A DNA stretch of 64,000 nt, taken from NCBI RefSeq assembly GCF_019263745.1, contig NZ_CP077107.1, positions 806,001 to 870,000 of the forward strand, written 5' to 3'. The notes under the pieces are model-generated. The model was given only the letters and a program-made list of their open reading frames with translations. It did not search any database and was not told the origin of the DNA. The stretch is from Methanospirillum hungatei. Its GTDB lineage: Archaea > Halobacteriota > Methanomicrobia > Methanomicrobiales > Methanospirillaceae. The first letter of the stretch is position 1. Each line of letters opens with the position of its first letter. This document shows, in pieces, positions 15,771 through 31,391 of this stretch. A program made the position numbers and the translations under genes.

Positions 15771-16184
15771 TTAAAAAAATCTTCCAGATATTACATCAGC
15801 TGGACAAACTCTTCCTTTTTCGGTTAAATCAAAATCCTGATCAAAACTCACAATCTGTAGGCTATATTCCTGTGCCAGGGTATATTGATATGCATCGTCA
15901 AAATCAAGATGAAATATATCCATATTTTGCATAACAGAATACAAATCTTCGTATCTTATATGAAGAATATGTATTCGACATCTTACAATTAGATCATCAA
16001 TGAATGTCCTGAATATTTCTTTTCTATCCTTCTTAGCAAGTATTACGCCTATTGAGTGAAGAGAGAAATCACTGATGACACAATGGTGCATCGGGATTGT
16101 CTCAAAAAAAATACGTGCTTCTGATGAATAATCCTGATCAAGAAGAACCATAAGTGGAACATTTGTATCAATCAGATATTTCAT
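15771..16184 (-). CDS. PIN-domain toxin (VapC-like)
   Basis: The likely start is ATG 16184, giving MKYLIDTNVPLMVLL; the frame is open upstream to 16229 but those codons overlap the antitoxin gene and look nonconserved. PIN-fold metal ligands are visible: Asp in LIDTN, Asp/Glu residues around IRYEDL, FDDAYQYTLAQEY and SFDQDFD. PIN toxins cleave RNA. The antitoxin gene overlaps its start by 17 bases on the same strand, the usual toxin-antitoxin arrangement. All acidic residues appear present, so the module is probably functional, unlike the decayed modules at 1-2 kb. Confidence 0.8.
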   Translation of the reverse strand: MKYLIDTNVPLMVLLDQDYSSEARIFFETIPMHHCVISDFSLHSIGVILAKKDRKEIFRTFIDDLIVRCRIHILHIRYEDLYSVMQNMDIFHLDFDDAYQYTLAQEYSLQIVSFDQDFDLTEKGRVCPADVISGRFF

Positions 16185-16392
16185 CGGTGTCACGCCAAAG
16201 CAAGGCTTTTTTCTGGAGAGAGAAAACATCTTCCTTTACATTAGAAAGGGCTCCTGCCCAATTTAGACAGGGTTTTTCAGATTCAATCCTCTGATTGTCA
16301 ATAAATAACGAATCTATAAAATCTAATACCATTTGTTGATATTCAGGAGGAAGATTTCGTGCACGTTGCTCAATAATATCGGTGATTGTCAT
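16168..16392 (-). CDS. Antitoxin of the PIN module (DUF2281-like)
   Basis: A 74-residue protein, MTITDIIEQRARNLPPEYQQ then VLDFIDSLF, the helical start of DUF2281-type antitoxins (LPpe...vldFidfL). The rest is polar with a tryptophan-containing tail for toxin binding. It is the first gene of the pair, overlapping the PIN gene, and probably represses their shared promoter just upstream of 16392. A cognate partner role is inferred from position. Confidence 0.7.
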   Translation of the reverse strand: MTITDIIEQRARNLPPEYQQMVLDFIDSLFIDNQRIESEKPCLNWAGALSNVKEDVFSLQKKALLWRDTDEISD

Positions 16393-16608: not shown

Positions 16609-16986
16609 TTATGGGCCCAGCCGGATTCGAACCGGCGACCTCCGCCGTGTAAAGGCGGTGTCATAACCAACTAGACCATAGGCCCGGCCTCTACAGGTTA
16701 GTTTCTCACCCATATAAACCTGTCTGGGGTTTTCTACCATTTTCGGGTCAGGATTAATATATTGGATACCACAAGGTATGTTTCCAGACTGCAACGCGGG
16801 TAGAAAACCAGTCTTTGATTCAGCCTCAACATCCACTAACACGTAGGACTCGGATATTTTATATATTGCAAAGACTTTTCCTATTAATTTCTTTTTCATA
16901 TTCTCTACAGGAAACCTAAAATAAGTATATACATATCCAGGTTTAGGTTCAGTCTTTTTAGCTTGGGTTAATCCAATAAATTCCAT
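16609..16986 (-). CDS. int(N): N-terminal half of an SSV-type integrase split by integration
   Basis: Starts at ATG 16986 behind a good ribosome site (TTGAGGT, seven bases away). Residues 1-100 (MEFIGLTQAKKTEPKPGYVY...) are element-encoded; from residue 101 the frame enters the tRNA repeat (RAYGLVGYDTAFTR) and continues through the tRNA to a chance stop. The repeat is in the same phase at the other end of the element, so in the circular form this frame runs on into int(C), giving 436 residues. Residues 1-100 resemble no domain I know. In the integrated state this fragment is expected to be nonfunctional. Its codons for Val90-Tyr91-Met92 contain the tRNA TATA box. Confidence 0.8.
   Translation of the reverse strand: MEFIGLTQAKKTEPKPGYVYTYFRFPVENMKKKLIGKVFAIYKISESYVLVDVEAESKTGFLPALQSGNIPCGIQYINPDPKMVENPRQVYMGEKLTCRGRAYGLVGYDTAFTRRRSPVRIRLGP
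16612..16685 (-). tRNA. tRNA-Val (anticodon TAC)
   Basis: A 74-base gene with complete cloverleaf: acceptor GGGCCTA pairs with TGGGCCC (one G-U), a D-arm, anticodon stem CCGCC/GGCGG around the loop TTTACAC giving anticodon TAC, and T-arm GCCGG-TTCGAAT-CCGGC. Discriminator base is A; CCA is not encoded. It is the integration site of the adjacent element. The 5' 42 bases are duplicated at 31303-31344, so this copy has been rebuilt using element DNA for its 5' part and promoter. Confidence 0.95.
16644..16685 (-). repeat. Left attachment core (attL) inside tRNA-Val
   Basis: A 42-base perfect direct repeat of 31303-31344, covering tRNA nucleotides 1-42 (5' end through the anticodon arm). Identity stops exactly at 16643/31302 on one side and 16686/31345 on the other, as expected for an attachment core left by site-specific recombination. 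Confidence 0.93.
16711..16718 (-). promoter_or_regulatory. TATA box of tRNA-Val, inside int(N)
   Basis: The minus strand reads TTTATATG, 26 bases upstream of the tRNA 5' end. It lies within the int(N) coding sequence, so the element brings its own promoter for the tRNA it rebuilds. The displaced chromosomal box (31372-31379) has nearly the same spacing. Confidence 0.65.
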
Positions 16987-17005
16987 TCAAATACCTCAAT
17001 TAAGA

Positions 17006-17575
17006 TTACTCACAGGTGTGGTGGTTGGTATGCGTGGTTTTGGATGGATCATTTTGGTAATTTAAAAGATATTTTAGCCAATCAATAACTGATGTTCCTT
17101 TTATTAAGCATTCATTACCTTTCTTGCCATTGGTTTTGAGTTCACCGCTTGCTACTGCCTTGGAGACCTTTGATTTCCGAGTATTAATGTTCATTGAATC
17201 GGGTAACATTTCAGCAACATCCTTCTGTCTATACCATTCATTATGATTCAATGGAGGGTCGCTATTGGGAATATGATCTTGATCAAAAGAGATGATGGGT
17301 TCAGGTTCGATAGGTGCTTCATGTGCTTCAGTGATGATCTTTGTTGGTGTCATTGATGCAAACTTTTCTTCTATTACTTGCATCCGGTGAGTTAGATTAT
17401 CAACTTCGGATCGAAGATCATCATTGTGTATTATTTGTGTATTTTTTAAACCTCCCAAGTAATCTTTTAAAGCTACCTCAATAACTGAGCTGCGTGTCAT
17501 ATCATGATCCTTGGCATGTCGATCTAACTGATCATTGATCGCTTCACTAAGTGTAATATTGAATCTCCCTCTCAT
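17006..17575 (-). CDS. Ribbon-helix-helix regulator (paralogue A)
   Basis: 189 residues. The N-terminus RFNITLSEAINDQLDRHAKD then RSSVIEVALKDYL is a ribbon-helix-helix (CopG/MetJ) DNA-binding fold. A linker of about 60 residues leads to a C-terminal domain (WYRQKDVAEMLPDSMNINTR...SKVSKAVASGELKTNGKKGN) shared with the protein at 17824-18327. The gene sits 19 bases upstream of int(N) on the same strand, so it may be co-transcribed with it and control it. Six TGTGTA/TACACA words cluster directly over and upstream of its start, suggesting autorepression. Likely a plasmid copy or integration regulator. Confidence 0.75.
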   Translation of the reverse strand: MRGRFNITLSEAINDQLDRHAKDHDMTRSSVIEVALKDYLGGLKNTQIIHNDDLRSEVDNLTHRMQVIEEKFASMTPTKIITEAHEAPIEPEPIISFDQDHIPNSDPPLNHNEWYRQKDVAEMLPDSMNINTRKSKVSKAVASGELKTNGKKGNECLIKGTSVIDWLKYLLNYQNDPSKTTHTNHHTCE

Positions 17576-17676
17576 GTGTATAATGTGTGTAGAGCATACT
17601 ACTTAATTGTTTGTGTATATTATGTGTAAAATATATGTGCGCGATCTTGTGCAAAATTTGTGTAGAGGAATACACA
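17575..17676 (-). promoter_or_regulatory. Cluster of TGTGTA operator-like repeats
   Basis: TGTGTA occurs at 17575-17580, 17586-17591, 17612-17617, 17623-17628 and 17659-17664, and as TACACA at 17671-17676. Six hexamers within about 100 bases immediately upstream of an RHH gene fit the iterated short operators that RHH dimers bind cooperatively. Binding is inferred. Confidence 0.5.
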
Positions 17677-17823
17677 TTAGAATAAAAATTGCATGGTAAC
17701 TGAATAATAGTAGGACTAGCGGGTCTAATTACGAATTAATTTTAAAATTTGAATACTTTAAGCCGAAATGATGATAAAAGATACAGAAAGATAACTGTCA
17801 ATACATAAAGAAAATAAGGTGTT

Positions 17824-18327
17824 TTATTCATCATTGACTTTTCTATACTTATTTAACCATTTAATAGCAGAAGATCCTTTAACCCTACATTTCTTTCCTT
17901 TTTCTCCATTTGTTTCAATAAAACCTTGTGCGACTGCTCTTGAAACGGTTGCTTTTTTAGAGTTAAATTGCATTGCATCTGGCAAGTGTTGGAATAGATC
18001 ACTTTGCCTATACATTTTATTAGGTTCCAATTGTTCAATCATAGAAATATAATCCATTTTTCTTGGTTTTGACAATTCACCAAATACTGACATAATATGA
18101 TCATCAGGATTCAAAATCGCCTCTATTCTATTCAATCGCTCATCCTGGTTTTCTATTTTTTTTAACAGTTCATTTGAATTGTTTAGAGGAGGAGATTTAC
18201 TTTTATCAAATAAGTCAATCAATGCAATTTCAATTACTGAACTCCGAGAAATCCCATTATTTTTAGAATAATCATCCAATTTTTGATTTATCCGATCACT
18301 TAATGTAATTGTATACTTATTTCGCAT
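17824..18327 (-). CDS. Ribbon-helix-helix regulator (paralogue B)
   Basis: 167 residues with the same plan as 17006-17575. It has RHH N-terminus KYTITLSDRINQKLDDYSKN...RSSVIEIALIDLF, a short coiled linker (LLKKIENQDERLNRIEAIL) and the shared C-terminal domain MYRQSDLFQHLPDAMQFNSK...ATVSRAVAQGFIETNGEKGK. The two genes are a diverged tandem duplication about 250 bases apart. This one is divergent from the helicase gene, so it may control the 18328-18523 intergenic region where GTTAAC boxes lie. Target sites are inferred. Confidence 0.75.
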   Translation of the reverse strand: MRNKYTITLSDRINQKLDDYSKNNGISRSSVIEIALIDLFDKSKSPPLNNSNELLKKIENQDERLNRIEAILNPDDHIMSVFGELSKPRKMDYISMIEQLEPNKMYRQSDLFQHLPDAMQFNSKKATVSRAVAQGFIETNGEKGKKCRVKGSSAIKWLNKYRKVNDE

Positions 18328-18454
18328 AACATATCATTGGTCAGACAAATACATATATTTTACTTCCATATAGAATGAAGAAACAAATCTGACAGTCTCA
18401 AATAATTAAAATTTGAGCCTAATATTTAACAAAAAGATTAATATCAACAGATCT

Positions 18455-18485
18455 GTGTTAACTACCAAAAAGTATATTTGTTAAC
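18455..18485 (+). promoter_or_regulatory. Paired GTTAAC boxes upstream of helicase gene
   Basis: GTGTTAACTA (from 18455) and TTGTTAACTA (from 18478) are near-identical words 23 bases apart, about two helical turns, and 40-70 bases before the helicase start. The TTGTTAAC word recurs as a perfect inverted pair before the primase-like gene (20512-20535). They could be operators or replication-protein sites. Confidence 0.4.
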
Positions 18486-18523
18486 TATACCTACGTATTA
18501 TAGATAACAATCACAGACAGGAT

Positions 18524-20446
18524 GTGAACAGTTCAATTATGGATGACCAAAGAGATTATGAAAAGATTCTGATATCTCATCCCAAGATTTACAACAGTTC
18601 ACATACTGGTGGAAATAAAACCACACGTGCAATACAATTTATCGAGGGTCAAACCCGCAAACAAAGAAATGTTATCGTAATTATGCAAAGTTACGACATT
18701 TTAGAGGTAGCATATCTGAACAAGTTTTCTTCACTTGTTAAATCAAGAACTATCATATTAAAAGGAAGAACTCAAGATGGCGTATGTGATTTTGCAAAAG
18801 CTCTCTCAAAATTTTATGAATATACAATCCCTAAAGTGGAATGTAATTGTGGGCATGAAACAAACTGCCAATATAAAGAAAATATTGAACGTATCAGTGA
18901 TTCAGATTCGACGGGTTATGGTATAGTAATACTCACAACACCGAAGTTACTTTATTACGCATTAAGTATAATTGACAGTTCCATTCCTACAATAATTATT
19001 GATGATGTTCCATTTTCTGAAGTTGTTTGTAACAATGTGAATATTCTAAATGGAAATTTAGACCATTTAATTCAATACTGTAATGATAACAATCTCCCAA
19101 ATTTAAGTACTATCAGCACTCTTGCTAAAAAACAAGATATCAGCGGTATAAGGAGTTTATATAATTGTTATAACACTTCGATAAAGGATGAATTTGATAG
19201 ATTAAATAACATATTATTACATCAAGATTTTGCTTCAGTATTTAACGCTTCCACGAAAATACTTCCAAAATTTCATATTTTACATTTAATCGATAACGCA
19301 ATAAATGGTAACGAAGATATCCAATTATATGAACCTCAAATACCTAACACAGGATTTGAATTAAAAATATTCTCAATTAACAGGTCATTATCAAATTATT
19401 CATTAATATACCTTAATGCTTCAAGGACTTCAGAAGACGATTTCTACTTAAATCGTATTGATAAACATTGGTATAAAATTGAGACAGATGCAACTCCCAA
19501 TCCCAATTTTGTATTACTAGCAATTAATGATGCATCATATTCTCAGGCAACGATTTGCGATCATAATTCAAAATTTGCTGATAAAGTCATTGAAATAGTA
19601 GAACAGTTGGATATCTATTTTAAGTTTCTTAACCAGGAAGTAATTTTTTTTACTCATTCCAGATCCTATGATGAAAAATTTTCTAACAGCAGGTTGAACA
19701 GAACAAATCATAAATTTGTTCCATTTCGAAGCGATAAAAGCAAAGCAACGAATGAATTCATTGATACCCCTATATCGGTGATTGTAGGGACCCCTTATCT
19801 TCCACCAGATTATTTCATCAGTCCACCTTTCGAACTAGAATGGAAACCATCATCAGACATTATAAAAGAAGTTGAAGATAATAAGACCAAACCCTATAAA
19901 AATCCGATTTACCCCGTTAATAGAGAAATATCTGATAATTGTGCTATTGAACACTTAATTCAAGTTGTTGGAAGGACTTTTCGAAAAAAAAACAATGGTC
20001 CCGAGAGAAAGAAACTCGTAATCTTATTTTCGAATCTAGATATCAAAAACGCACTATTTCAGCAAAATGGATGCGAGTATCTCTCTTTTAAAATAAGATC
20101 CCAAACAAGTCGAAACGGCTTTTATACACAATTGGAAAGAGAAATAAAAAAGGTTCTTTTTCCTTTGATTTTTGATAAAATTATTGATGACATAAAAATT
20201 AGATTGGAGAGTGATGATCATGTAAAATTGTATGAATATTGTGTTGAAGTTTCAAAACAGTTGGATGGAAAAATTGGATTTAAAACAATCGAACGAGAGA
20301 TAAAGTCTCGATTACATGATTATATCCAAAAAATGCCAGTAGGCTTTAATAATCGTAACATACTGGTCATAAAGAAACCCAATCTTCCATGTTTTGATGA
20401 TAATGACACAATATTAAAACCTATTCAATCATTGGAGGGAGAATAG
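18524..20446 (+). CDS. Fe-S-type SF2 helicase-like protein (XPD/DinG-like)
   Basis: 640 residues from GTG 18524 (ATG 18539 is an alternative). The P-loop is HTGGNKTT at 27-34, with Asn in place of the usual Gly before Lys. After it comes LKGRTQDGVC (79-88), reminiscent of the LKGR-x-NYxC segment of DinG/XPD helicases, then cysteines at 107, 109 and 115, which with Cys88 could hold a 4Fe-4S cluster. Motif II is IIIDDVPF (157-164) instead of DEAH, and motif VI QVVGRTFR is near 480. It likely unwinds DNA for replication of the element. It stands before a primase-like gene, forming a replication block. ATPase competence is uncertain given the altered motifs. Confidence 0.6.
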   Translation: MNSSIMDDQRDYEKILISHPKIYNSSHTGGNKTTRAIQFIEGQTRKQRNVIVIMQSYDILEVAYLNKFSSLVKSRTIILKGRTQDGVCDFAKALSKFYEYTIPKVECNCGHETNCQYKENIERISDSDSTGYGIVILTTPKLLYYALSIIDSSIPTIIIDDVPFSEVVCNNVNILNGNLDHLIQYCNDNNLPNLSTISTLAKKQDISGIRSLYNCYNTSIKDEFDRLNNILLHQDFASVFNASTKILPKFHILHLIDNAINGNEDIQLYEPQIPNTGFELKIFSINRSLSNYSLIYLNASRTSEDDFYLNRIDKHWYKIETDATPNPNFVLLAINDASYSQATICDHNSKFADKVIEIVEQLDIYFKFLNQEVIFFTHSRSYDEKFSNSRLNRTNHKFVPFRSDKSKATNEFIDTPISVIVGTPYLPPDYFISPPFELEWKPSSDIIKEVEDNKTKPYKNPIYPVNREISDNCAIEHLIQVVGRTFRKKNNGPERKKLVILFSNLDIKNALFQQNGCEYLSFKIRSQTSRNGFYTQLEREIKKVLFPLIFDKIIDDIKIRLESDDHVKLYEYCVEVSKQLDGKIGFKTIEREIKSRLHDYIQKMPVGFNNRNILVIKKPNLPCFDDNDTILKPIQSLEGE

Positions 20447-20511
20447 GATGATTTGAAATTTCACTTTTGAAATATCCCTATTATAATTAATAGGGAGTAT
20501 TTTTCTAATAA

Positions 20512-20535
20512 TTGTTAACATCAGTTAGTTAACAA
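20512..20535. promoter_or_regulatory. Perfect inverted repeat TTGTTAAC/GTTAACAA
   Basis: TTGTTAAC (20512-20519) and GTTAACAA (20528-20535) form a perfect palindrome with an eight-base spacer, between the helicase stop and the primase-like start. The same word occurs upstream of the helicase gene, so one regulator or initiator may act on both. Confidence 0.45.
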
Positions 20536-20607
20536 AACGTGAGGCACTAATGGAATAATATATTGAGACAATTAGATATTGTCCTTAAATTAAGAAAAGG
20601 AAAGCAA

Positions 20608-21552
20608 ATGAAAAAGTTTGAATCTCATAACATACCTGATGAGTTAAAAGTGTATGATTCGTGGGTAGTATGGAGATATATTCAACGAAATGGAGGAAGA
20701 AATGGTAAACAGCCTTTCATCTCATCAACCTGTTATCCTAGTAGGAGAAGGCCAATTCCAGCTAAAACTACCGATCCAAAAACATGGAGCAGCTTTGATG
20801 ATGCTGTACAATATGGAAAATTATCTGGAAACGGAGGAATTGGATTTGTATTTTCTCCAAATATTCCATATATTGGATTAGATATCGATGATTGTATAGT
20901 AAATAGAGAGATAATTGCTCCAGTGAAAAAGTTGTTGGATGACTTAAATACTTACTCCGAAATCTCCCCGAGTGGAACAGGAATACGCTGTATTCTCAAA
21001 TCCAATTATTCTGGAAACCAGAATATATCAGGATATAATAACATTCGTAAAATCGAGATATCAACAGATAGAAGATACGTTACCATTACAGGGTTTGTTA
21101 TTGAAGGTTATCCATTAGAAATCAATGAAAATGACAAGGTAATGGACGAAATTGTGGTACAAATGGAAAACTCACCCACCACCCCACTGTGTGTAGTTTC
21201 TTCTGAACCCTTAAGCCAAATAGATGTTGATCTTTTAACGGGGCCCGAAGAGTTGAATGATGTCGAGATAATTGCAAAAATCTGGTCGAGTCAGAAGGGT
21301 AAAAGATTATGGATCGGAGACATCTCACTGTTTGACAATGATCACAGTAGAGCAGACATGGCACTTCTCTGTATGATCGCTAACTGGTCTCGAAATATTA
21401 ATCAAATCGATCGTCTATTTCGAAAAAGTAAGTTATTCCGAGAAAAATGGGAACAAAAGTGCGGTATGATCAATGGAGTTGAGTGTACATATGGGTATAT
21501 CTCAATAATCAAGGCATTATCTCGTACCAAGGACTTTTTAAAATACCGGTAA
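20608..21552 (+). CDS. Primase-polymerase-like replication protein
   Basis: About 314 residues from ATG 20608, preceded by AAGGAAA; a TTG at 20563 would add 15 residues. The N-terminal part has the pattern of archaeo-eukaryotic primase-polymerases of mobile elements: WVVWRYI...GKQPFISS, TTDPKTWSSFDDAV, GIGFVFS, YIGLDIDDC (catalytic Asp pair), SEISPSGTGIRCIL and RYVTITG. The C-terminal part (DHSRADMALLCMIANWSRNI...FRKSKLFREKW) resembles the helical bundle found in NrS-1-type polymerases. A C-terminal helicase is absent; the adjacent helicase gene may supply that activity. Likely primes element replication. Confidence 0.7.
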   Translation: MKKFESHNIPDELKVYDSWVVWRYIQRNGGRNGKQPFISSTCYPSRRRPIPAKTTDPKTWSSFDDAVQYGKLSGNGGIGFVFSPNIPYIGLDIDDCIVNREIIAPVKKLLDDLNTYSEISPSGTGIRCILKSNYSGNQNISGYNNIRKIEISTDRRYVTITGFVIEGYPLEINENDKVMDEIVVQMENSPTTPLCVVSSEPLSQIDVDLLTGPEELNDVEIIAKIWSSQKGKRLWIGDISLFDNDHSRADMALLCMIANWSRNINQIDRLFRKSKLFREKWEQKCGMINGVECTYGYISIIKALSRTKDFLKYR

Positions 21553-21645
21553 TTACGATGATTTTTGGAATGCCATATTGAAAACCCGGTTTTACTGAAA
21601 TTATAATACCCCTTTTTTAATAGGTAATATTATGAGGGAAAAAAT

Positions 21646-21870
21646 ATGCAGATGATATTAGAAAAATTAAAAGAGAGAGCTCTGAATACAAAAAATCAAA
21701 AGGAATTCATTGCGTTGACTAGGCAGATTATCAAGATTGAAGAATTAAGGGTGAATCAAGAAAGGATGAGTGTGCTAGAATCTCGTATGGAAAAAAAAGA
21801 ACAATTTGTACGAGAAATTGACAAAGCGATAATGACTCAAATTTTAAATGAATCTTCGGTGATCGGATGA
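21646..21870 (+). CDS. Small coiled-coil protein
   Basis: 74 residues, MQMILEKLKERALNTKNQKE..., almost entirely charged helix with heptad-like leucines and isoleucines. No known domain. Its stop overlaps the next start (ATGA at 21867-21870), so the pair is translationally coupled. A TATA-like TTATAATA lies about 45 bases upstream. Probably an element-specific accessory or regulator. Confidence 0.55.
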   Translation: MQMILEKLKERALNTKNQKEFIALTRQIIKIEELRVNQERMSVLESRMEKKEQFVREIDKAIMTQILNESSVIG

Positions 21871-22025
21871 CTAAGACTAAACTGGTGAAATTAGCAGAAC
21901 GGATGGAAAAATTAGAACATAAGGTGACGAGATTGAAGCGGATGATGAATAATGAAATTTATCGTCATAAGTTCATAAAGGCGTGGTGTGAGAATATACC
22001 TAATGTATCTATTCATGAAATTTAG
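21867..22025 (+). CDS. Very small helical protein, coupled to the previous gene
   Basis: A 52-residue frame beginning MTKTKLVKLAERMEKLEHKV and ending VSIHEI. Basic, helical, heptad pattern in the first half. The start codon overlaps the stop of the preceding gene (ATGA). No recognisable family. It converges on the ApeA-like gene, whose stop is 61 bases further on. Confidence 0.5.
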   Translation: MTKTKLVKLAERMEKLEHKVTRLKRMMNNEIYRHKFIKAWCENIPNVSIHEI

Positions 22026-22086
22026 AAATACTAATGATAATAATCTGAATAATATTAGAAAATAGAAGATTGCAGAGATAGAGATA

Positions 22087-23502
22087 TTAGTTATTTATGG
22101 AATAGAACGTTCTAATATTCCCATATTTATTAGTCCGTTGAATCATTTCATTTAATTTATCAGAAGAAATTCCAATCTCTCGGAGTAAACATAATTCTAG
22201 AATAAATTTTAATACGATTATTCCATATATGAAATCCGATCCTTCTAAAATTTGATCTCTTAATCGCTCATCACGATGGGCATGGAAATTTCTTGTGTCA
22301 ACGATTTTATTAATCAATTGATCTAAATTTTGAACGTAATTAGAAAGAATGTTATGATATTCAGAATTCAAAGATACCATTAATTCCTTTAATCGTTTTC
22401 TCAAACTATATTCGTTTAAGTAAGTAAACTTACCTTTTAAGCTTTCTTTAAAGTCACGTTCTAATGATGTTGGAATTGATTGAATTAAATCAATCTTCAA
22501 AAGATCAAATTCAGATTCTATAACATATTTACCATTGAATCTTACTCTATGATAGGACTCAATAGCTTGAATAAGAGAATTAAATTTATATGTGGATAAT
22601 GATCCATCATCAATCATAACTAGGTGATATAATTCAATAACAGATTGAATTGAATTGAATTCTCTATTCCAATTATTTAATGAATCTTCGAATACATCTG
22701 AAATATCTAAATATGTAAATAGCATCTCTGATGGATGTATTGCTTTAATATTTTCATTATATCCTAATATTCGAAAATGTATTTTAATTTCCTGTTCTTC
22801 AACAACTTCAGGATTTTGTGATTGGATAAAACCAATAATTTTTTTGGGGAATATTGGATTACCCAATCCTAAAGATATGTATGTTTGAATTGGAAAGATT
22901 ACTTGTTCGAACACACTATCAAATCGTATCGGACTTTGAGGAATTATTTTAAAAAACCAATTCCAATTAATGGATAAACCGGAGATATTATTGTGATTAA
23001 AATTTATGTTCATCTTTATTTCAATATTACAATCTCCTATGGTTATTGTAATAGATTGAGGGAAATTAACTAATGCCGTCTGTGTCCCTTCAATTCTACC
23101 CTCTCTATCATAATTTAACTGATAGGTCATTGGATGTCGAGCAAACCATTCATTTGTACGAGTGAATTCAATTTTTATTAAGTTATATTCAATATTTTCG
23201 GGAGCCTCCGAGTGGATTCCCTCAAATATTCTCGATACAGCAAAATCACTGGAGTAATAACCAGGAAATGAAAAGCTATTTGTAATATGAAGGCAATTTT
23301 CAAGAGTGTAGAGTTTACCATTTTTCGTATTACCAAAAATGATGTTTTCCCTACTTACCCGTAGTGAAACATCAATTTCGTAAAATGAACCATTTAATGT
23401 TAAATTTCCTCCATCCCTTGAAGAATATGATAGTCTTCCACTAATTTTTCTTTCTGGATTCGATGGAAGCCACCAATATCCCTCACAATCAATCTCTTCC
23501 AT
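22087..23502 (-). CDS. apeA: ApeA-like HEPN anti-phage protein
   Basis: 471 residues. The N-terminus (MEEIDCEGYWWLPSNPERKI...GNLTLNGSF) matches the opening of the ApeA N-terminal domain as I recall it (W-WLPsnPe...G-L...g-xL-L-GsF). The C-terminal third is helical and contains DTRNFHAHRD, an R-x4-H HEPN ribonuclease motif at about Arg404-His409. ApeA proteins are single-gene abortive phage-defence effectors in which HEPN cleaves RNA on infection. Here it is carried on an archaeal integrative element, alone on the minus strand. The HEPN motif is seen directly; the family name is from memory and should be checked. Confidence 0.7.
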   Translation of the reverse strand: MEEIDCEGYWWLPSNPERKISGRLSYSSRDGGNLTLNGSFYEIDVSLRVSRENIIFGNTKNGKLYTLENCLHITNSFSFPGYYSSDFAVSRIFEGIHSEAPENIEYNLIKIEFTRTNEWFARHPMTYQLNYDREGRIEGTQTALVNFPQSITITIGDCNIEIKMNINFNHNNISGLSINWNWFFKIIPQSPIRFDSVFEQVIFPIQTYISLGLGNPIFPKKIIGFIQSQNPEVVEEQEIKIHFRILGYNENIKAIHPSEMLFTYLDISDVFEDSLNNWNREFNSIQSVIELYHLVMIDDGSLSTYKFNSLIQAIESYHRVRFNGKYVIESEFDLLKIDLIQSIPTSLERDFKESLKGKFTYLNEYSLRKRLKELMVSLNSEYHNILSNYVQNLDQLINKIVDTRNFHAHRDERLRDQILEGSDFIYGIIVLKFILELCLLREIGISSDKLNEMIQRTNKYGNIRTFYSINN

Positions 23503-23959
23503 AAATATTATGTGGAAAAGGATTTATTAAAACATTTATACTTAAATTGAGATATCAATATATCTTATTTACTACATCTATAGGAAGAAATGGAAGATTC
23601 TTAAAAGATCTGTAATTATGCCATTGATACCATTGAGATGGAGGGACTATTACAAATCCATCAAGGATAAGATTAATTCCAGGAGAGAGTTCTATTTGCT
23701 TCATCTCATGACCACGATAATAAGGTTTTTCTAAAATAATTTTTCTTAAATATTCACCTAATTGGTCTGGATTAGTGTGGCCTGAATATTCAAAGTACTC
23801 GGGTTTTATTGAGGTCAGTTGTGTCGTTAAAAATTCAGAATCGCATTTAAAGTAATAATCATATCCAAGGGGTGTTTTTACAATTGCAGTTTTTGGTAAT
23901 GTAAGAAATTGGTTTTCGTACTCTATTAATCGATCATTTCTATACCTGAACTCGGCATT

Positions 23960-25390
23960 TTAACCCATAGGTATTTGGTCGGTGAAGAGGCTGAGTATTT
24001 TTGTTGCTCTCTTAGGAATCTGTGCAAAACTTTTTGTTCCACGTGCATCATGAATTATCTCAATTTTTGAAAGTTCAAAAAAGACTTCTTCTACAGAGAT
24101 AATCTGATTTAAGTTTAATATGCGAAGTTTTCTTAAAACTGAAAAGTATATCCTCAGTGCCAATAATGATATGAAAAAATAACCTCTAACACTTTCTTCC
24201 GACTGCAAATACGATTTATCTGAATCTATTGGGTTTTTTAATGCATCAAATGCAAGTTCCACATCTTCCCTCTCTTTATATAAAAGAAAAATTTCTGCTG
24301 GAGGTTTAGCAATGTCAGATAATATTGGAATTATTCCCGAAAATTCGCATTTATTTTGATATTCACCTACATTCAGGCCTCTTTTAAGTGAATTTTTTAG
24401 TAAAGTAGATTCTTTTTCCCCCTTCAATAAGGGATCCATATAAAGGTAGAGGTAACCATATTGATTATTAACACACGTACACAAAATCCCTCTATTACGA
24501 TATAAAAACCCTCCATCCCATACTATTTTAGATTTTTGTAAGAATTTTGAATTCTTTTTTAATGGGACAAGGTAGTGAATACCTCTTTTTTTTAGTTCAT
24601 TCAACAATGAATACGAAGAGAAGCCCCGATCCAAAATTAATCCAATATCGTTGTCTTTAAATCGATTTAAGAAATTTTTTATTGTTTTTATATCTCTCAT
24701 AGATCCATATGAGACATCGCATCCGATTGGAAGACCGGTATTCGATGAGAATGCCATTGAAACCCCAATTTGTTCGTTTTTATCATGGTCTGCATTATAT
24801 CCCTTTTCAGCTAACTTTATTGATTCAGAATAAGTAATAATCGCAGTTAAGTCGTAAAATATCAAATCGTCGTCTGAAGCTAATTCTGCAAATAAGTCAT
24901 ACCACCAGCCAACTTCAGAACCGATTTGGTGAAGTACCTCTCCTAAATGTTTAGGCAACAATTTGACATTGATTTGATTGGATAAATCTAACTTTTCCCA
25001 TCGTGATTCAATTAATCTGAGAGGTTTAGGATCTAAGGCTTTTACGATAGCCATAGTGACTAATTCCTTGAAATATGGAGTATATTTTTCTAATAATGAT
25101 TCAAGATCCTTGATGTATGAATAGGCTAGCATCCCATTAGCATATTCAAATATTTCTCTGTTTGAAACTATTTTTGAGGCTGAATTTTTTTTGGGTTTAA
25201 ACGTACCATCACGAGTTATGGATCCAATATAGTGTGTCGTTTTTTTCGATTTTTTTGTTTGTGGATCATACACACTTGAAGCGCGATAAACATAAAAACC
25301 ACCTTTGATTTGATGAATTTCTACGTTATGTTGAAGATTTTTTTTCAAGTTTTGAAGGGTGTGCCGCACCTTATCAGGGATCATATTCAT
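23960..25390 (-). CDS. IS4-superfamily (IS1634-like) DDE transposase
   Basis: 476 residues. Catalytic residues of an RNase H-fold transposase are visible: first Asp in LIFYDLTAI near 180, second Asp in GLILDRGFSS near 258, and the YREK signature YKEREDVELAFDALK (Y-x2-R-x3-E-x6-K) near 368 containing the catalytic Glu. The gene is intact and fills most of a 1.59-kb insertion sequence; its stop codon overlaps the left terminal repeat. A TATA-like box lies in the 150 bases between the start and the right repeat. It catalyses cut-and-paste movement of the element. Confidence 0.9.
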   Translation of the reverse strand: MNMIPDKVRHTLQNLKKNLQHNVEIHQIKGGFYVYRASSVYDPQTKKSKKTTHYIGSITRDGTFKPKKNSASKIVSNREIFEYANGMLAYSYIKDLESLLEKYTPYFKELVTMAIVKALDPKPLRLIESRWEKLDLSNQINVKLLPKHLGEVLHQIGSEVGWWYDLFAELASDDDLIFYDLTAIITYSESIKLAEKGYNADHDKNEQIGVSMAFSSNTGLPIGCDVSYGSMRDIKTIKNFLNRFKDNDIGLILDRGFSSYSLLNELKKRGIHYLVPLKKNSKFLQKSKIVWDGGFLYRNRGILCTCVNNQYGYLYLYMDPLLKGEKESTLLKNSLKRGLNVGEYQNKCEFSGIIPILSDIAKPPAEIFLLYKEREDVELAFDALKNPIDSDKSYLQSEESVRGYFFISLLALRIYFSVLRKLRILNLNQIISVEEVFFELSKIEIIHDARGTKSFAQIPKRATKILSLFTDQIPMG

Positions 25391-25549
25391 ATCCTACTAC
25401 TGGGTTAAAATACACTGTGTTAATTTATTAGTAGAATTATAAATATTTTGCCCTGTTCTAGAAGTTCATTTTTTAAACTCCTTAAAAATTGAATATTTTT
25501 CAAAACAAAGGGTAAAAATATTTGAAGGAAACTTACAATACTGGGTTAA
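23960..25549 (-). mobile_element. IS1634-like insertion sequence
   Basis: The ends are TTAACCCA (23960-23967) and its complement TGGGTTAA (25542-25549), a short inverted repeat. A third copy, TGGGTTAA at 25402-25409, lies just upstream of the transposase start and may be an internal transposase site. Length is about 1590 bases, holding one transposase gene. It splits a Prim-Pol-like gene. Family size fits IS1634-like elements. Confidence 0.75.
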
Positions 25550-25936
25550 CTAAGAAAAGTTAGGGTTCTATAATTACTTGAAATCACTCGCAATACAACA
25601 ACATCAATGTCAAATCCTACTTTAATAGCATAATATACCCCTAAATGCCCATCTCTTAAAAATTCCTTAATATCTGAAGTTGCTTTATCCGGAGGTTCAC
25701 ATAAATAAAAGTCGTATGGATTTAAATTTCCAGAATTATCATTATAATCAACAGAAATTATCTTTAATCCAATATCCATAAAATCCTTATGAACCGTCAT
25801 TAAATTGGAGTTAATTGAGACCGATTTTACCATAATAAAGGATGTTTTTTCCATGATATTAAGATAAAAACCCTCCATTATGTTATCAAAAACAAACTGT
25901 GAACTTATCTAATGTTCAGTGAGAGCAAAAAATTAG

Positions 25937-27253
25937 TTAATTTTGAGATTCTGAAAATAATTTTAACATCTTTGAAGAAGGGTAAGTTGATAACGAAGCG
26001 ATATTGTTTGCTAGTTCTATAGGAAGAAGTGCACCTTCATATCTATTACTTATAATTTTTGGAATTGTTGAAATAATCCGTGTGTAACCGATCAAATCAT
26101 CCGGTTGCGGATTTTGTTTATACTTTCCAAATGGTATATTCAAAACCATCATATGGTAGTTGTTTTGTTTTATGAATAATTTCGCTCCATAATTAGTATC
26201 CTTTCCATAAGGTGCACCTCCTATTGGACGACACTGAATATGTTTTTTAATATATTCATCTTGTAACAGAAGAAAGGATTTTTTTGGGGCATCAGGACCA
26301 AGAAATTGCAGATGATCATAAAACATGCCAGATTTTTCCTGACCCATCATATGAATAGGATAACCTGAAGTTTTAGCATATTCAAAGAATTGTCTAATTG
26401 GCTCTACTAATTTTGAATATTGTGCTCTAATTGATAATGGACCATCTTTTATAAAAAGACACTCACTGATTAAATCTTTATGATTCTCCCAAAATATACG
26501 TAATGCTGTAAATAGAAGAAGAGTTTCATGGATAATCATATAAGTAGATGCTATTGTTGGGGGAGCCGAATCTTCACCCATATCAAGATGAAAACCAAGA
26601 AAGTCAGTAATATATATTTCATTTCCACAGACAGAACATATTCCTTTATCTGAATCATAAGGCAGAGAGGTCAAATGTTTTTGATCTTCATGACCATATG
26701 GACATTGAAATTCAGGTAAGCCATCTCTAGAATCACTCCATTTTTTATAAGCTATCCATTTTAACGTATCAAGGATTTGTCCATCCATATTAGGTGATGT
26801 ATCACAAATAGAATGATAAATCGTATCCCTAATTGTATCATAAATGGTTTTACCTTCAGTCCAGGTATTCCTTAATGGTAATATTGTTGAATGGGATGTT
26901 ACTGATTCTCGAAGAATGTCTTGTATTACAAAAGGGTGAGGAGTCTCTGGATCTACTTTTTCTAAAGCATAAGTATCCAGTTTCAATAAAGCAGTCTTTA
27001 TAAAAGAAACTGATGAATAGGGATATTGATCATGATCAATTTGTTGAAGAGATCCATCCACAACAAAAATGTATTTCAAAGTCTCTTCAGCAGCAGGTAA
27101 TGGCGACCAATTAATTGTATTACATTCTTCTGGTCGATATTGTTGATTAAAATTCGCTAATAGTTGTTTGACTAATGGATAATCCATAACCTCAAGATGT
27201 CCAAGTCTACTTGCTCGCTCACCAGGTAATCTTGAACCCTGTTGATACGGCAT
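25937..27253 (-). CDS. nurA: NurA-like nuclease with zinc-binding insert
   Basis: 438 residues. NurA catalytic features are present: IFVVDGSLQQ with Asp66, and LFIKDGPLS near 275 with the second essential Asp, followed by the C-terminal stretch YHMMVLNIPFGKY. Between them lies CPYGH...ICSVCG (around 190-215), a four-ligand zinc-ribbon-like insert that typical NurA proteins lack. NurA is a 5'-3' exo/endonuclease that works inside the HerA hexamer during DNA-end resection. Its start overlaps the herA stop as TAATG at 27251-27255, so it is the last gene of dam-herA-nurA. Here it is likely a defence or element effector rather than the housekeeping copy. Confidence 0.8.
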   Translation of the reverse strand: MPYQQGSRLPGERASRLGHLEVMDYPLVKQLLANFNQQYRPEECNTINWSPLPAAEETLKYIFVVDGSLQQIDHDQYPYSSVSFIKTALLKLDTYALEKVDPETPHPFVIQDILRESVTSHSTILPLRNTWTEGKTIYDTIRDTIYHSICDTSPNMDGQILDTLKWIAYKKWSDSRDGLPEFQCPYGHEDQKHLTSLPYDSDKGICSVCGNEIYITDFLGFHLDMGEDSAPPTIASTYMIIHETLLLFTALRIFWENHKDLISECLFIKDGPLSIRAQYSKLVEPIRQFFEYAKTSGYPIHMMGQEKSGMFYDHLQFLGPDAPKKSFLLLQDEYIKKHIQCRPIGGAPYGKDTNYGAKLFIKQNNYHMMVLNIPFGKYKQNPQPDDLIGYTRIISTIPKIISNRYEGALLPIELANNIASLSTYPSSKMLKLFSESQN

Positions 27254-29262
27254 TAATTACTCCTATCAGTGGATTCAGTACAGCAAAATTTATTTGCTTG
27301 AATCGGGATGACAAATCGATTTGAACGTGTTAATATTCGAACATATCCTTGAGTTTTGGTTTGTAAGATATCCTCAATTAGACCTTCATATGCAACGTTC
27401 AATCTCGCTAACTTATCAACTTCTGGTCTTGAAGATATATGTGTTACAAAAAAGTTTTCCGTTTGAGCTAATAAATCTTGACTGATAGTTGAAGGAGATT
27501 GTGTGGAATATACCATTCCTAAATGGTATTTTGCTCCTTCTTTTGATATTCTATTATAGATACTTGTTACCTTACTATCATCAGAAGGGAATAGATTATG
27601 TGCCTCTTCAAAGTATAATTGAATATAATGATCTGACAATTTATTTTCTGAAAATAATTCCACTTGGTGTTCAAAAATAGATTTAGACAACCATTGTGAA
27701 AAATAATTCATGACTTCTGGATGAGCATTACTTAAATCTAAAATTATTGTCTTCCCGAGCGATAATGAATTGAGTATTTCAGTAACAAAATTTGCTGCAT
27801 CTTTATCATGATAAATTCGATAGGGCAGAATTTTTCTAGGTCCACTTGCAGATTGTGATCTGGGTACCAAAAATTCTAGTAATGCTTCATCATCAGAATC
27901 AAATAAGGGATTATTATTAGCACTTTCTAACCTTGGTAAATGTGAATTTCTATTTCGTTCAGCAAAGAGTTGTAACTCAATAAGCAATTCATCTAAAGTG
28001 GTTACATTTTCAGGCATTTGACGATCATTTGCTTCATAGATCTCTAACCTTTGTTCTCTACCAAAACGTGGATTGACTCCACCATAGTGTTGAAGAGTGC
28101 TAAAGTTTGCAGGAAATCCTGCCTTATGAAGAATTGCCCAATACATCAGAATTTTTCGATTTGCACGAGTTCTATCACCGAAACCCATCTCTTGTATACT
28201 TGCAAAAGACGGAATTTCTACGGAAAGGAAACTAGAGATATAATTTGAAAGGTGTGATTCCTTTTCTCGAATCAACGTACCTAATAAGTGATGAGAAATA
28301 TCAGGATTTGAATAGAAATCTAATCTCAAAGGCTTTGAAACAGTGTTTTCTTTAGGAGTGATTGCATAAACATCACAATCAGAAGAATAAGCAGATGCTA
28401 GGGAAGTACTATCATCTTGCGGGTTATCATTAGCATATTCTCCATTAATATCAAAAATCACCTGACCAACAGAATGCTTTCTTTTATCTGTAGTGGATGG
28501 ATTCAAATGAGTTGTTTTTATCAAACTTTCTGCTATGATTTTAACAATATTACTCTTACCTGTTCGCGTTTTTCCGAACATTGCAGTTCTAGTTCCCTTA
28601 AAATCATCGGTTGATACAATAACGGGAACATTAGGTAATTTACAATCAGGTAATTTCAAACGACATTCAGTAAACCTCAATTTTCCAATTTCAAATAGAT
28701 TTTGTGATGGTTGAATTGAATTAATTATTAAATCAAGAAGTTCATCTGACGGCGAATAAACAAAATATTTATGCGCACTAACAATATTATTCAAATCTCC
28801 AGAAAATTCAATAACATTAGAGAGTTCAGGATGTGGATAATACATGCCTAAAAATGAAGTTTTTAAAGCACCCCATTGTAGTTCACTTTGAGTAAAAACA
28901 TCCAATTCAGGCATTGACTTTTTATGTAATTCAAAATAGGTTTGCTGTTTCTCTTTTTTCAATGGTTCATCAGCTGTTCCATCAACCCTGAGTAAAGAAA
29001 AGTGCGGAGTATATTTAGTATATTCAGCAGGTACCATTATTAGTAAAGAATTACGGGGAATGCCCCCTACAGCAATTTTAAATGCGTCAGAAGTTACAAT
29101 AGTTGCAGTATTATACCCTATTTCTAAAACAAATCCAACAAACCGATAATGTGCATAATCTTTACCTTCGAATTTTCTTTGTTCATCCTCTAAAAAATTA
29201 ATCAATACTCTAATCGGATGGTTTTGTAATGCAATATCGTTGCTTAAAGTTTTCAAATTCAT
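27253..29262 (-). CDS. herA: HerA-like DNA-translocating ATPase
   Basis: 669 residues. An N-terminal beta-rich HAS-barrel region (FVGFVLEIGYNTATIVTSDA) is followed by Walker A GKTRTGKS at 230-237, a long insert, Walker B LYFEEAHNLF near 550, and VYSTQSPSTI with a C-terminal tail, the FtsK-HerA pattern. HerA forms a hexamer that pumps double-stranded DNA and binds NurA. It is longer than the roughly 500-residue housekeeping HerA; the extra residues lie between Walker A and B. Both ends are coupled by TAATG overlaps to dam (upstream) and nurA (downstream), implying fixed stoichiometry. Confidence 0.85.
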   Translation of the reverse strand: MNLKTLSNDIALQNHPIRVLINFLEDEQRKFEGKDYAHYRFVGFVLEIGYNTATIVTSDAFKIAVGGIPRNSLLIMVPAEYTKYTPHFSLLRVDGTADEPLKKEKQQTYFELHKKSMPELDVFTQSELQWGALKTSFLGMYYPHPELSNVIEFSGDLNNIVSAHKYFVYSPSDELLDLIINSIQPSQNLFEIGKLRFTECRLKLPDCKLPNVPVIVSTDDFKGTRTAMFGKTRTGKSNIVKIIAESLIKTTHLNPSTTDKRKHSVGQVIFDINGEYANDNPQDDSTSLASAYSSDCDVYAITPKENTVSKPLRLDFYSNPDISHHLLGTLIREKESHLSNYISSFLSVEIPSFASIQEMGFGDRTRANRKILMYWAILHKAGFPANFSTLQHYGGVNPRFGREQRLEIYEANDRQMPENVTTLDELLIELQLFAERNRNSHLPRLESANNNPLFDSDDEALLEFLVPRSQSASGPRKILPYRIYHDKDAANFVTEILNSLSLGKTIILDLSNAHPEVMNYFSQWLSKSIFEHQVELFSENKLSDHYIQLYFEEAHNLFPSDDSKVTSIYNRISKEGAKYHLGMVYSTQSPSTISQDLLAQTENFFVTHISSRPEVDKLARLNVAYEGLIEDILQTKTQGYVRILTRSNRFVIPIQANKFCCTESTDRSN

Positions 29263-30107
29263 TAAAACATCTCTTCTTTGATTGAAAAAATTATGACTTC
29301 TCCAGGATTTGTGGACAATTGTCCAGGATTAGAACCAGTACCAATATCTGGTTGAAACATACGGTTTTTCTTATAGAGTTTAACAATATCAGGATGTGAT
29401 GAATTAGTCATAACCCATTGAACACCCCTTTTGGTTGCTCTTTTCAAAGCATTGGCTAGTCTTTTTTGATCAGGATAAGCAAAAATACCATAGCGATAGT
29501 GTTCGTTAAGCTGCTCTTTCTGCCCCGGACAATAAGGAGGATCAAGAAATAGAAAATCACCATCCACACTTTCATCAATTATCGCATTAAAATCACTGCA
29601 TTTCAAATCAGCTTTTTTAAGTCTCTTTGCCACATCAATTAGATCTTTCTGATCAATTACCCACCGTCTATCTTGACCACCATATCCAACATTGAATTCA
29701 CCATTGGTATTATATCTCCACATTCCTTTGAAACAAGTTCGATTTAAATAAAGTATTCTCGCTGCCCTTTCTAATAAATGAAGATCTTCTGGATTCATAT
29801 TTCGAATCTCATAATATCCATCTTTATTATCTGGATAACTACAGTACAATTTCCAAACAACTTTAGGATCTTTCCTAATTCCTTGATAGAGATCGATTAA
29901 TTCACTATTTATATCAGATAATACCGCTCTTTTCGGATTTAAATGAAAAAATACTGCTCCCCCACCCAAAAAAGGTTCAACATAATATTGGATATCATTA
30001 AGATTATGAGGAAATAAATGAGAGAAATTTTGAATGAAACGCTGTTTCCCCCCAGGATACCGCAAAATAGAAAGATTCTTTGAACTATTGTTAATATGAC
30101 ATATCAT
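29262..30107 (-). CDS. dam: D12-class DNA adenine methyltransferase in the HerA-NurA operon
   Basis: 281 residues. Motifs: LRYPGGKQRF at 16-24, AdoMet site YVEPFLGGGA at 42-51, catalytic LDPPY at 188-192. It methylates N6 of adenine at an unknown site. First gene of the operon; its stop overlaps the herA start (TAATG at 29260-29264). A methyltransferase in front of a translocase and a nuclease suggests self/non-self marking, with HerA-NurA attacking unmethylated DNA. It is only distantly similar to the other D12 enzyme at 4127-4993, with shared motifs but little else. Confidence 0.87.
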   Translation of the reverse strand: MICHINNSSKNLSILRYPGGKQRFIQNFSHLFPHNLNDIQYYVEPFLGGGAVFFHLNPKRAVLSDINSELIDLYQGIRKDPKVVWKLYCSYPDNKDGYYEIRNMNPEDLHLLERAARILYLNRTCFKGMWRYNTNGEFNVGYGGQDRRWVIDQKDLIDVAKRLKKADLKCSDFNAIIDESVDGDFLFLDPPYCPGQKEQLNEHYRYGIFAYPDQKRLANALKRATKRGVQWVMTNSSHPDIVKLYKKNRMFQPDIGTGSNPGQLSTNPGEVIIFSIKEEMF

Positions 30108-30334
30108 AAAATCGCTTAAACATAATACGAATCACTTCTCACACGATCATTAAATCAATTTACTACATTTGGTTGACTTATTAAAGACACTTAATTTAAT
30201 GACAATCATATGATAATAATTTATTAATATCTTACGAAATGCCTCTGAATAATCTATTTAAAGATTTAAGATTATGGAAAAAACATAACTGTTAAGCATT
30301 TTTTAAACACACACCACCCACCTGTGAGTAATTA
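30108..30334. other. Promoter region of the dam-herA-nurA operon
   Basis: 227 AT-rich bases with no credible gene. Because both flanking genes are on the minus strand, it should hold the promoter for dam and the end of int(C). Several TATA-like words (for example ATTAATAT and TTTAAAGA) occur but none can be singled out. Confidence 0.4.
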
Positions 30335-31344
30335 TTAATATAATTGAACATTACCCCATCTTTCCATATACTTATCATAAAGAGATTCAGACGTGATCTG
30401 CTTATAAGATCTGAATTGAACTGATGATAAACCATGACACATTATCATATTTTTAAAGGTCTCATTAAATTCAAGTAAATCACTTTGCTGTTCAAAAAAC
30501 TTCCTCATATCTTTCAACATAATCTTGTCAGTAGTGTGTCGTAATAAGACAGGATTTTTTGATAACCAGCGAACACATTTATCCTTCTTAAACAACTTCT
30601 TATCTAAATCCTTCCCTTCTACCAACTTTTTCAATAATCGTACTAATACCGGATGAAGCGGCACACGATGACTTATCCGTGTTTTATCCTGTTCTCCAAA
30701 TACTTCAAGGACAGGTTTTTCATTATCTAATACTGAAGTCAACTGCCATACTTCCAATGTTTCACTGACGATCGGTCGCTGACCAGTATATGCAAGAAAT
30801 AGAATTTGAGAGACATATTCTAATTTCTGAACATCAGAAAGATCACTTTGATGAACATGATCAATTATATTAACTATGTCCTCTTTCACAATTATTCGCT
30901 GATTGAGATTTCGTATGCGAAGATTTTTAGGTAAAACAAGTTTGCTTTTCAAGTAATCGATATTGTATCCCTTTTTTAGAGATAACTCATGCATAAATTT
31001 CTTAACGAAATTAAAGACTTTTAATCGTGAATCGCGATCAGTATAATGACTGATTACATAGTCTCTCAATTGAGTGATTGTTTCTTCATCGATGATACCC
31101 TGTGTATAATCCCAAAGTATCTGATATGACTTTCTTTTCCATTGCAAAGAATTATATGCAAGACCTATTGTTTGTTCTTTAAAGTATCGATCTAACTCTA
31201 CTTTGTTAAATACGAAGAAATGTTCGAGATAAGTATTATCTATAGGAGAATTAACGTTGAATTCAGAAGAAGGAAAACCGGCGCTTCTCTCCGGATTATC
31301 GGGCCGTGTAAAGGCGGTGTCATAACCAACTAGACCATAGGCCC
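30335..31344 (-). CDS. int: int(C): catalytic half of the split SSV-type tyrosine integrase
   Basis: The frame is open from the repeat at 31344 (and a few codons beyond, to a TAA at 31352-31354) down to 30335; a TTG at 31147 is the only near start. Catalytic residues, numbered from that TTG: Arg124 in YTGQRPIVSE, Lys212 and Arg215 in LKDMRKFF (archaeal KxxR), His238 in CHGLSS and Tyr248 in FRSYKQ, ten residues on, as in XerD-type enzymes. In the circular element, int(N) supplies the start and 100 residues, and the joined frame is exactly 437 codons with stop. It mediates recombination between the element and tRNA-Val. Confidence 0.88.
31303..31344 (-). repeat. Right attachment core (attR), truncated tRNA-Val copy
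   Basis: 42 bases identical to 16644-16685. It is the 5' part of tRNA-Val without its 3' half, so it cannot make a tRNA. It lies in frame within int(C). Confidence 0.93.
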
Positions 31345-31371
31345 TTGCGCCTTACAAGGTATACTTCTGAC

Positions 31372-31379
31372 CATATAAG
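31372..31379 (-). promoter_or_regulatory. Displaced chromosomal tRNA-Val TATA box
   Basis: The minus strand reads CTTATATG 28 bases upstream of the truncated tRNA copy. This is probably the original chromosomal promoter. After integration it points into the tRNA fragment and int(C), and could drive int(C) transcription. Confidence 0.55.
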
Positions 31380-31391
31380 CATTGCCTATTT

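Follow-up and report, generated by a model that had tools for sequence, protein, structure and literature searches.

The N-terminal part of a split integrase, int(N), probably carries a complete tRNA promoter of the host type within its own codons. After SSV-type integration the linker that encodes these residues would drive the only tRNA-Val(TAC) gene of the cell, and we place the probability of this dual use at about 0.8. An element that inserts into the 5' half of an essential tRNA gene present in one copy would be expected to kill the cell if no new promoter were supplied, and the DNA beside the attachment core here can be nothing but integrase code. In the mechanism we propose, an SSV-type element takes nt 1-42 of tRNA-Val(TAC) as its att core, and crossover within the core exchanges the whole chromosomal 5' flank for the terminal part of int(N). 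Directly upstream of the core, the int(N) linker would then present a TATA box, 10 bp and an initiator, i.e. a host-type tRNA promoter. In the circular form this DNA would serve as protein code, and in the chromosome it would drive the rebuilt and only tRNA-Val(TAC), with the native promoter ending up facing int(C). If this is correct then a stretch of protein has been shaped by the promoter needs of the host.

The window, a stretch of 64,000 nucleotides of the Methanospirillum hungatei genome, contains a mobile element of ~14.7 kb (about 16,644-31,344) that carries an integrase gene in two parts. The key features are summarized in Table 1. The 42-bp direct repeat is exact, and the identity ends at the first base of the tRNA. 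int(N) is read in the same sense as the tRNA gene, which it enters and passes through, and when it is joined to int(C) at the repeat the two form a single open frame, 436 codons long. Across the second (attR) copy of the repeat the ORF ending at 30335 on the minus strand is likewise open, in the same frame. With attP located within int and the frame divided between the two ends of the element, the integrase is of the partitioned SSV-type ('suicidal') kind, and the element is positioned 5' of the tRNA.

Table 1. Coordinates within the window of the split integrase, its attachment cores, the target tRNA gene and the two promoters.
Feature	Position	Strand	Remarks
tRNA-Val(TAC), rebuilt at attL	16612..16685	-	Found by ARAGORN; only complete copy in the genome
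attL copy of 42-bp core	16644..16685	-	tRNA nt 1-42; exact direct repeat
attR copy of 42-bp core (orphan 5' half of tRNA-Val)	31303..31344	-	Exact direct repeat
int(N), N-terminal part of split integrase	16609..16986	-	125-codon ORF
int(C), putative catalytic part	30335..31302	-	In frame with int(N) via the core
Putative TATA box GTTTATATGG	16710..16719	-	Codons Q89/V90-Y91-M92/G93 of int(N); bipartite tRNA-promoter model
Initiator-like block AACCTGTAGAGG	16688..16699	-	Codons L96-T97-C98-R99-G100; exactly 10 bp past the TATA box
Displaced original tRNA-Val promoter (GCTTATATGG...ACCTTGTAAGGC)	31345..31381	-	Matches empty site of G002
Ribbon-helix-helix (RHH) regulator gene	17006..17575	-	19 bp upstream of int(N)

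The R, K, R and Y columns of int(C) are invariant across five relatives, and the sequence has a PHROG integrase match (E = 0.0013) and no Pfam match. AlphaFold run on int(C) without an alignment gave a pLDDT of 36, and a profile search of the PDB returned nothing relevant to the integrase. Neither the full integrase nor the int(N) alignment picked up relatives in scans of viral contigs, and a plasmid scan found none either. The RHH gene is a probable operon partner of int(N), and an array of ~18-nt TGTGTA-rich repeats upstream of it (17424-17664) might be iterons or operator sites. Elsewhere the element carries an ApeA-like HEPN protein (22087-23502, minus strand; Pfam ApeA_NTD1 and HEPN_Apea, PADLOC PDC-S58), a candidate defence gene, and a module at 25937-30107 (minus strand) of a HerA-type ATPase, a neighbour that looks NurA-like by eye and a D12 adenine methyltransferase, with a possible role in DNA processing or defence. 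On the chromosomal side, downstream of the tRNA, two small overlapping genes (15771-16392, minus strand) resemble by eye a PIN-domain toxin/antitoxin pair.

The rebuilt tRNA-Val(TAC) takes nt 1-42 from the element/core and nt 43-74 from the chromosome. The preliminary description had pointed out that a second tRNA-Val(TAC) gene would make the promoter dispensable. A search of the 3.39-Mb genome shows that only one tRNA-Val(TAC) gene is complete. Besides the 42-nt fragment there are Val(CAC) and Val(GAC), which are distinct genes, and a second TAC gene is absent. By the decoding rules the TAC tRNA is required for GUA codons. Since the repeat is exactly nt 1-42 of the tRNA, integration exchanges the entire 5' flank. 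The uninterrupted arrangement is seen directly in a relative (G002), whose empty tRNA-Val(TAC) site (L017/L020) is preceded by a gene ending in ..HVYHNFAG and a stop, and then by the promoter CCTTATATG...ACCTTGTAAGGC. The same gene end and promoter lie beyond attR in the window. The native promoter has therefore been shifted by 14.7 kb, and faces the tRNA fragment and int(C). The repeat and the empty site thus confirm the earlier proposal that the sequence upstream of tRNA-Val is replaced on integration.

That proposal also placed a TATA box 26 bases upstream of the tRNA, encoded as Val-Tyr-Met, and this is correct. The octamer TTTATATG occupies 16718-16711 on the minus strand, its last base lying 26 bases upstream of the first base of the tRNA, and is read as V90-Y91-M92 (GTT TAT ATG) of int(N). 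Yet the signal appears to exceed a TATA box alone. In the native tRNA promoters of the genome a TATA box is followed, after ~10 bp, by an initiator-like block AACATATARAGG near the tRNA, and the int(N) site has the same layout at the native distance from the tRNA. As a refinement, we consider it a probable two-part tRNA promoter that includes the initiator-like block.

We scored the site with a model built from 34 tRNA promoters native to the genome, the site of the element being excluded. The combination GTTTATATGG-10 bp-AACCTGTAGAGG scores 21.2, about fifth of 35, where the native range is 7.2-23.2 and the value for the displaced native promoter is 19.6. Among 42,618 background windows (both strands of the 64 kb) the median is 2.4, and a fraction of 7e-5 reach 21.2. 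With a wider model based on 80 native promoters of the order, the int(N) site scores 17.8, compared with 23.2 for the displaced native promoter and a native median of 16.1, and 4.8e-4 of windows reach the int(N) score. In both models it is the top site on the same strand in the 2 kb upstream. The block could in principle be an AT-rich linker with an accidental TATA-like octamer, since such octamers are frequent and the codon-choice P values discussed below are modest in three of the four elements tested. But the full bipartite score is found in just 7e-5 to 5e-4 of windows, the site is the best in 2 kb and a promoter-like linker recurs in other 5'-type elements, which makes chance the least probable of the explanations. 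The sequence strongly indicates that the int(N) block would function as a promoter. The proposed dual use as protein code and tRNA promoter sequence is upheld, with the function being predicted. We infer that transcription initiates at this promoter, and that it has been selected for. With regard to its descent, among 44 native promoters the displaced one matches the int(N) site best, in a tie with Ile (shuffle P = 0.0002), a resemblance that could be explained by common promoter motifs.

With an alignment of the int(N) N-domain we have searched two overlapping sets, 232 genomes from the order and 393 from the phylum, and classed the int(N)-tRNA junctions. Fifty-four are classical (3'-type), with int(N) running antisense into the 3' end of the tRNA. 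Six intact int(N) genes enter the tRNA from its 5' end, in sense orientation (5'-type), a set that leaves aside L303 and L258 (altered tRNA 5' end; broken frame) and in which the attL/attR pair is verified only for the genome of the window (G000). The finding thus extends to a small class of elements. Allowing any leader of up to 85 nt, the promoter scores are 17.7 for G000 (Val-TAC), 18.1 for G002 (Val-CAC), 14.3 for G489 (Val-GAC), 7.5 for G033 (Val-TAC), 9.0 for G061 (Asp-GTC) and 7.4 for G313 (Gly-TCC). Under the same rule the 3'-type controls (n = 54) have a median of 6.0, a 90th percentile of 10.1 and a maximum of 10.8. The 5'-type linkers are thus more promoter-like than the 3'-type (Mann-Whitney P = 0.0013, or 0.0063 if G002 is omitted and 0.029 if both members of this genus are), P values that are indicative because the flexible leader rule was chosen after seeing G002. 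For the TATA box alone the contrast gives P = 0.0019. With the leader fixed at native lengths it weakens to P = 0.10, because G002 needs a leader of ~55 nt and G061 one of 30-40 nt. The G033 match is weak (5.2), and three of the six best non-genus cases depend on a model trained on Methanomicrobiales. The linkers of G489 and G061 are unrelated in sequence, with the same promoter layout.

A second line of evidence comes from decayed integrase genes. In this genus tRNA-Gly(TCC) and tRNA-Val(CAC) normally lie in tandem behind one promoter. In G002 they are separated by a 9.7-kb insert, and in G000 and G003 by ~330 nt and ~900 nt respectively of decayed int(N)-related DNA. Alignment of these two fossils with two intact genes reveals a common block around GGTTtATAt...AAC.AA...AGGC. 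The frame of the G000 fossil is broken, and blastn against the intact gene finds substantial similarity only over the last 93 nt (73% identity), extending from the TATA box to the tRNA. The promoter scores of the fossils in the 80-promoter model are 22.9 (G000) and 15.0 (G003). The clearest indication of a role for the block as DNA, and not as protein, is that the promoter is retained after loss of the frame. A conserved block in attP might instead be an arm-binding site for the integrase with no promoter role. It does adjoin the core, and an AGAAAAC motif lies 5' of the TATA box in three of the four sequences of the genus. We consider this very unlikely, given that the block fits the consensus of the native tRNA promoters, including their 10-bp spacing, that the promoter layout is maintained between the unrelated linkers of G489 and G061, and that the block is kept by fossils that are unable to excise.

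If the linker is a promoter, the demand could fall on the choice of codons or on the amino acids themselves. Synonymous recoding of the G000 linker gave P = 0.03 using host codon usage, rising to 0.14-0.15 with the usage of the element. For G002 P = 0.002-0.006, and G489 and G033 were not significant. Codon choice alone is therefore significant only in G002 and borderline in G000, and these tests are modest overall. Yet recoded linkers outscore ordinary protein windows (n = 1136), G000 lying above 99.4-99.9% of them and G489 above 99.8%. The residues themselves are therefore promoter-compatible. In G000 and G489 the promoter shape resides mainly in the amino-acid sequence, the linker being like a translated promoter, and most of the constraint sits in its choice of amino acids. 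Between G000 and G002 almost no residues of codons 69-100 are conserved except P71, Q75, V84-E85-N86 and V90-Y91. The codons of V84-E85-N86 and V90-Y91 are identical in the two genes, numbers too small for a formal test. Codon conservation at int(N) residues 90-92 beyond the need of the protein had been suggested as a check in the preliminary description.

The closest structural parallel is with the pTN3-like suicidal integrases of the Thermococcales (pTN3, TKV4), where the att core is the tRNA 5' half, 41 bp to the anticodon (PMC8371274, PMC5495485). In the excerpted text of these sources the integrase gene is split, the tRNA is cut from its own promoter and int(C) comes to lie behind the tRNA promoter, all as here, where the core is similarly the 5' half to the anticodon region (nt 1-42). 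The pTN3 excerpt has the rebuilt tRNA parted from its original promoter (PMC5495485), and that of the review has it expressed from the integrase promoter (PMC8371274). The present integrase belongs to a different family, in a different order, and is found at tRNAs Val, Asp and Gly rather than Leu. No match to the Phage_integr_3 domain (PF16795) was found in the Pfam scan or in this genome, and profile comparison is only distant. Use of the 5' half is therefore not confined to pTN3-like integrases. A scan of genome contigs seeded with pT26-2 returned only pT26-2-type loci of Thermococcus and Archaeoglobaceae. A split at the tRNA 5' half is thus known, whereas a tRNA promoter inside int(N) codons, as predicted here, is not described in the excerpts on pTN3-like elements (PMC8371274, PMC5495485).

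Following those elements, the tRNA could be transcribed by read-through from the promoter of the integrase operon (the RHH gene plus int(N)) and released by RNase P, in which case the TATA box would be incidental. The RHH gene ends just 19 bp before the start of int(N), in agreement with this. But an essential tRNA would then depend on an element promoter that is probably repressed, and there would be no explanation for a bipartite tRNA-type signal at the native distance, for its absence in 3'-type relatives or for its persistence in the fossils. We regard read-through as unlikely, though as it is the published assumption for the analogous elements, we use the term essential promoter provisionally. 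The promoter within int(N) would provide a specific start site in place of that assumption.

SSV1 and pT26-2 share the partition of the gene at a tRNA core, and the present N-domain aligns with many such int(N) in Halobacteriota. They differ in that the 3' half of the tRNA is used and int(N) is antisense to it, so the tRNA retains its own promoter. The nearest functional precedent is SpyCIM5, an island of Streptococcus pyogenes in which a cryptic promoter in an integrase pseudogene drives the adjacent mutL and rescues expression after decay (PMC3430984). However, this is bacterial, the target is protein-coding, and the promoter, which follows int deletion, is neither in a working integrase gene nor a tRNA promoter. 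Islands and prophages specific to dusA swap the 5' end of their target gene and bring a putative new promoter (PMC4482086). In the excerpted text of that report the target is protein-coding and the promoter is of the bacterial -10/-35 type, not reported to lie within integrase codons.

A general statement would be that suicidal integrases targeting the tRNA 5' end have, as the variable linker ahead of att, a tRNA promoter translated into amino acids. This would have arisen in several lineages (Val-TAC/CAC, Val-GAC and Asp-GTC), and after decay of the element would stay as the permanent tRNA promoter of the host. Two species appear to run tRNA-Val(CAC), torn from the old tRNA-Gly operon, on a fossil integrase fragment. 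We lean towards this broader view, if only slightly. It would lead to a predictive rule, that 5'-type elements need a promoter and 3'-type do not, and provide a route by which host tRNA promoters are swapped for mobile-element DNA that is kept once the element has gone. The genus seems to have cultured representatives.

The same integrase family also strikes tRNA-Val(TAC) from the other side. The 3'-type copies in G010 (C42:215834-226077), G009 (C44:40251-47272) and G003 (C15) duplicate nt 33-74, where the 5'-type uses nt 1-42. Both halves of this tRNA are therefore att sites, overlapping only around the anticodon loop. In one genus of the same phylum (G061, G070, G079, G102, G096 and G088) there are 7-17 copies of the int(N) N-domain per genome, and some tRNAs (L252, L258 and L303) have an int(N) on each side, an unusually dense load of suicidal integrases.
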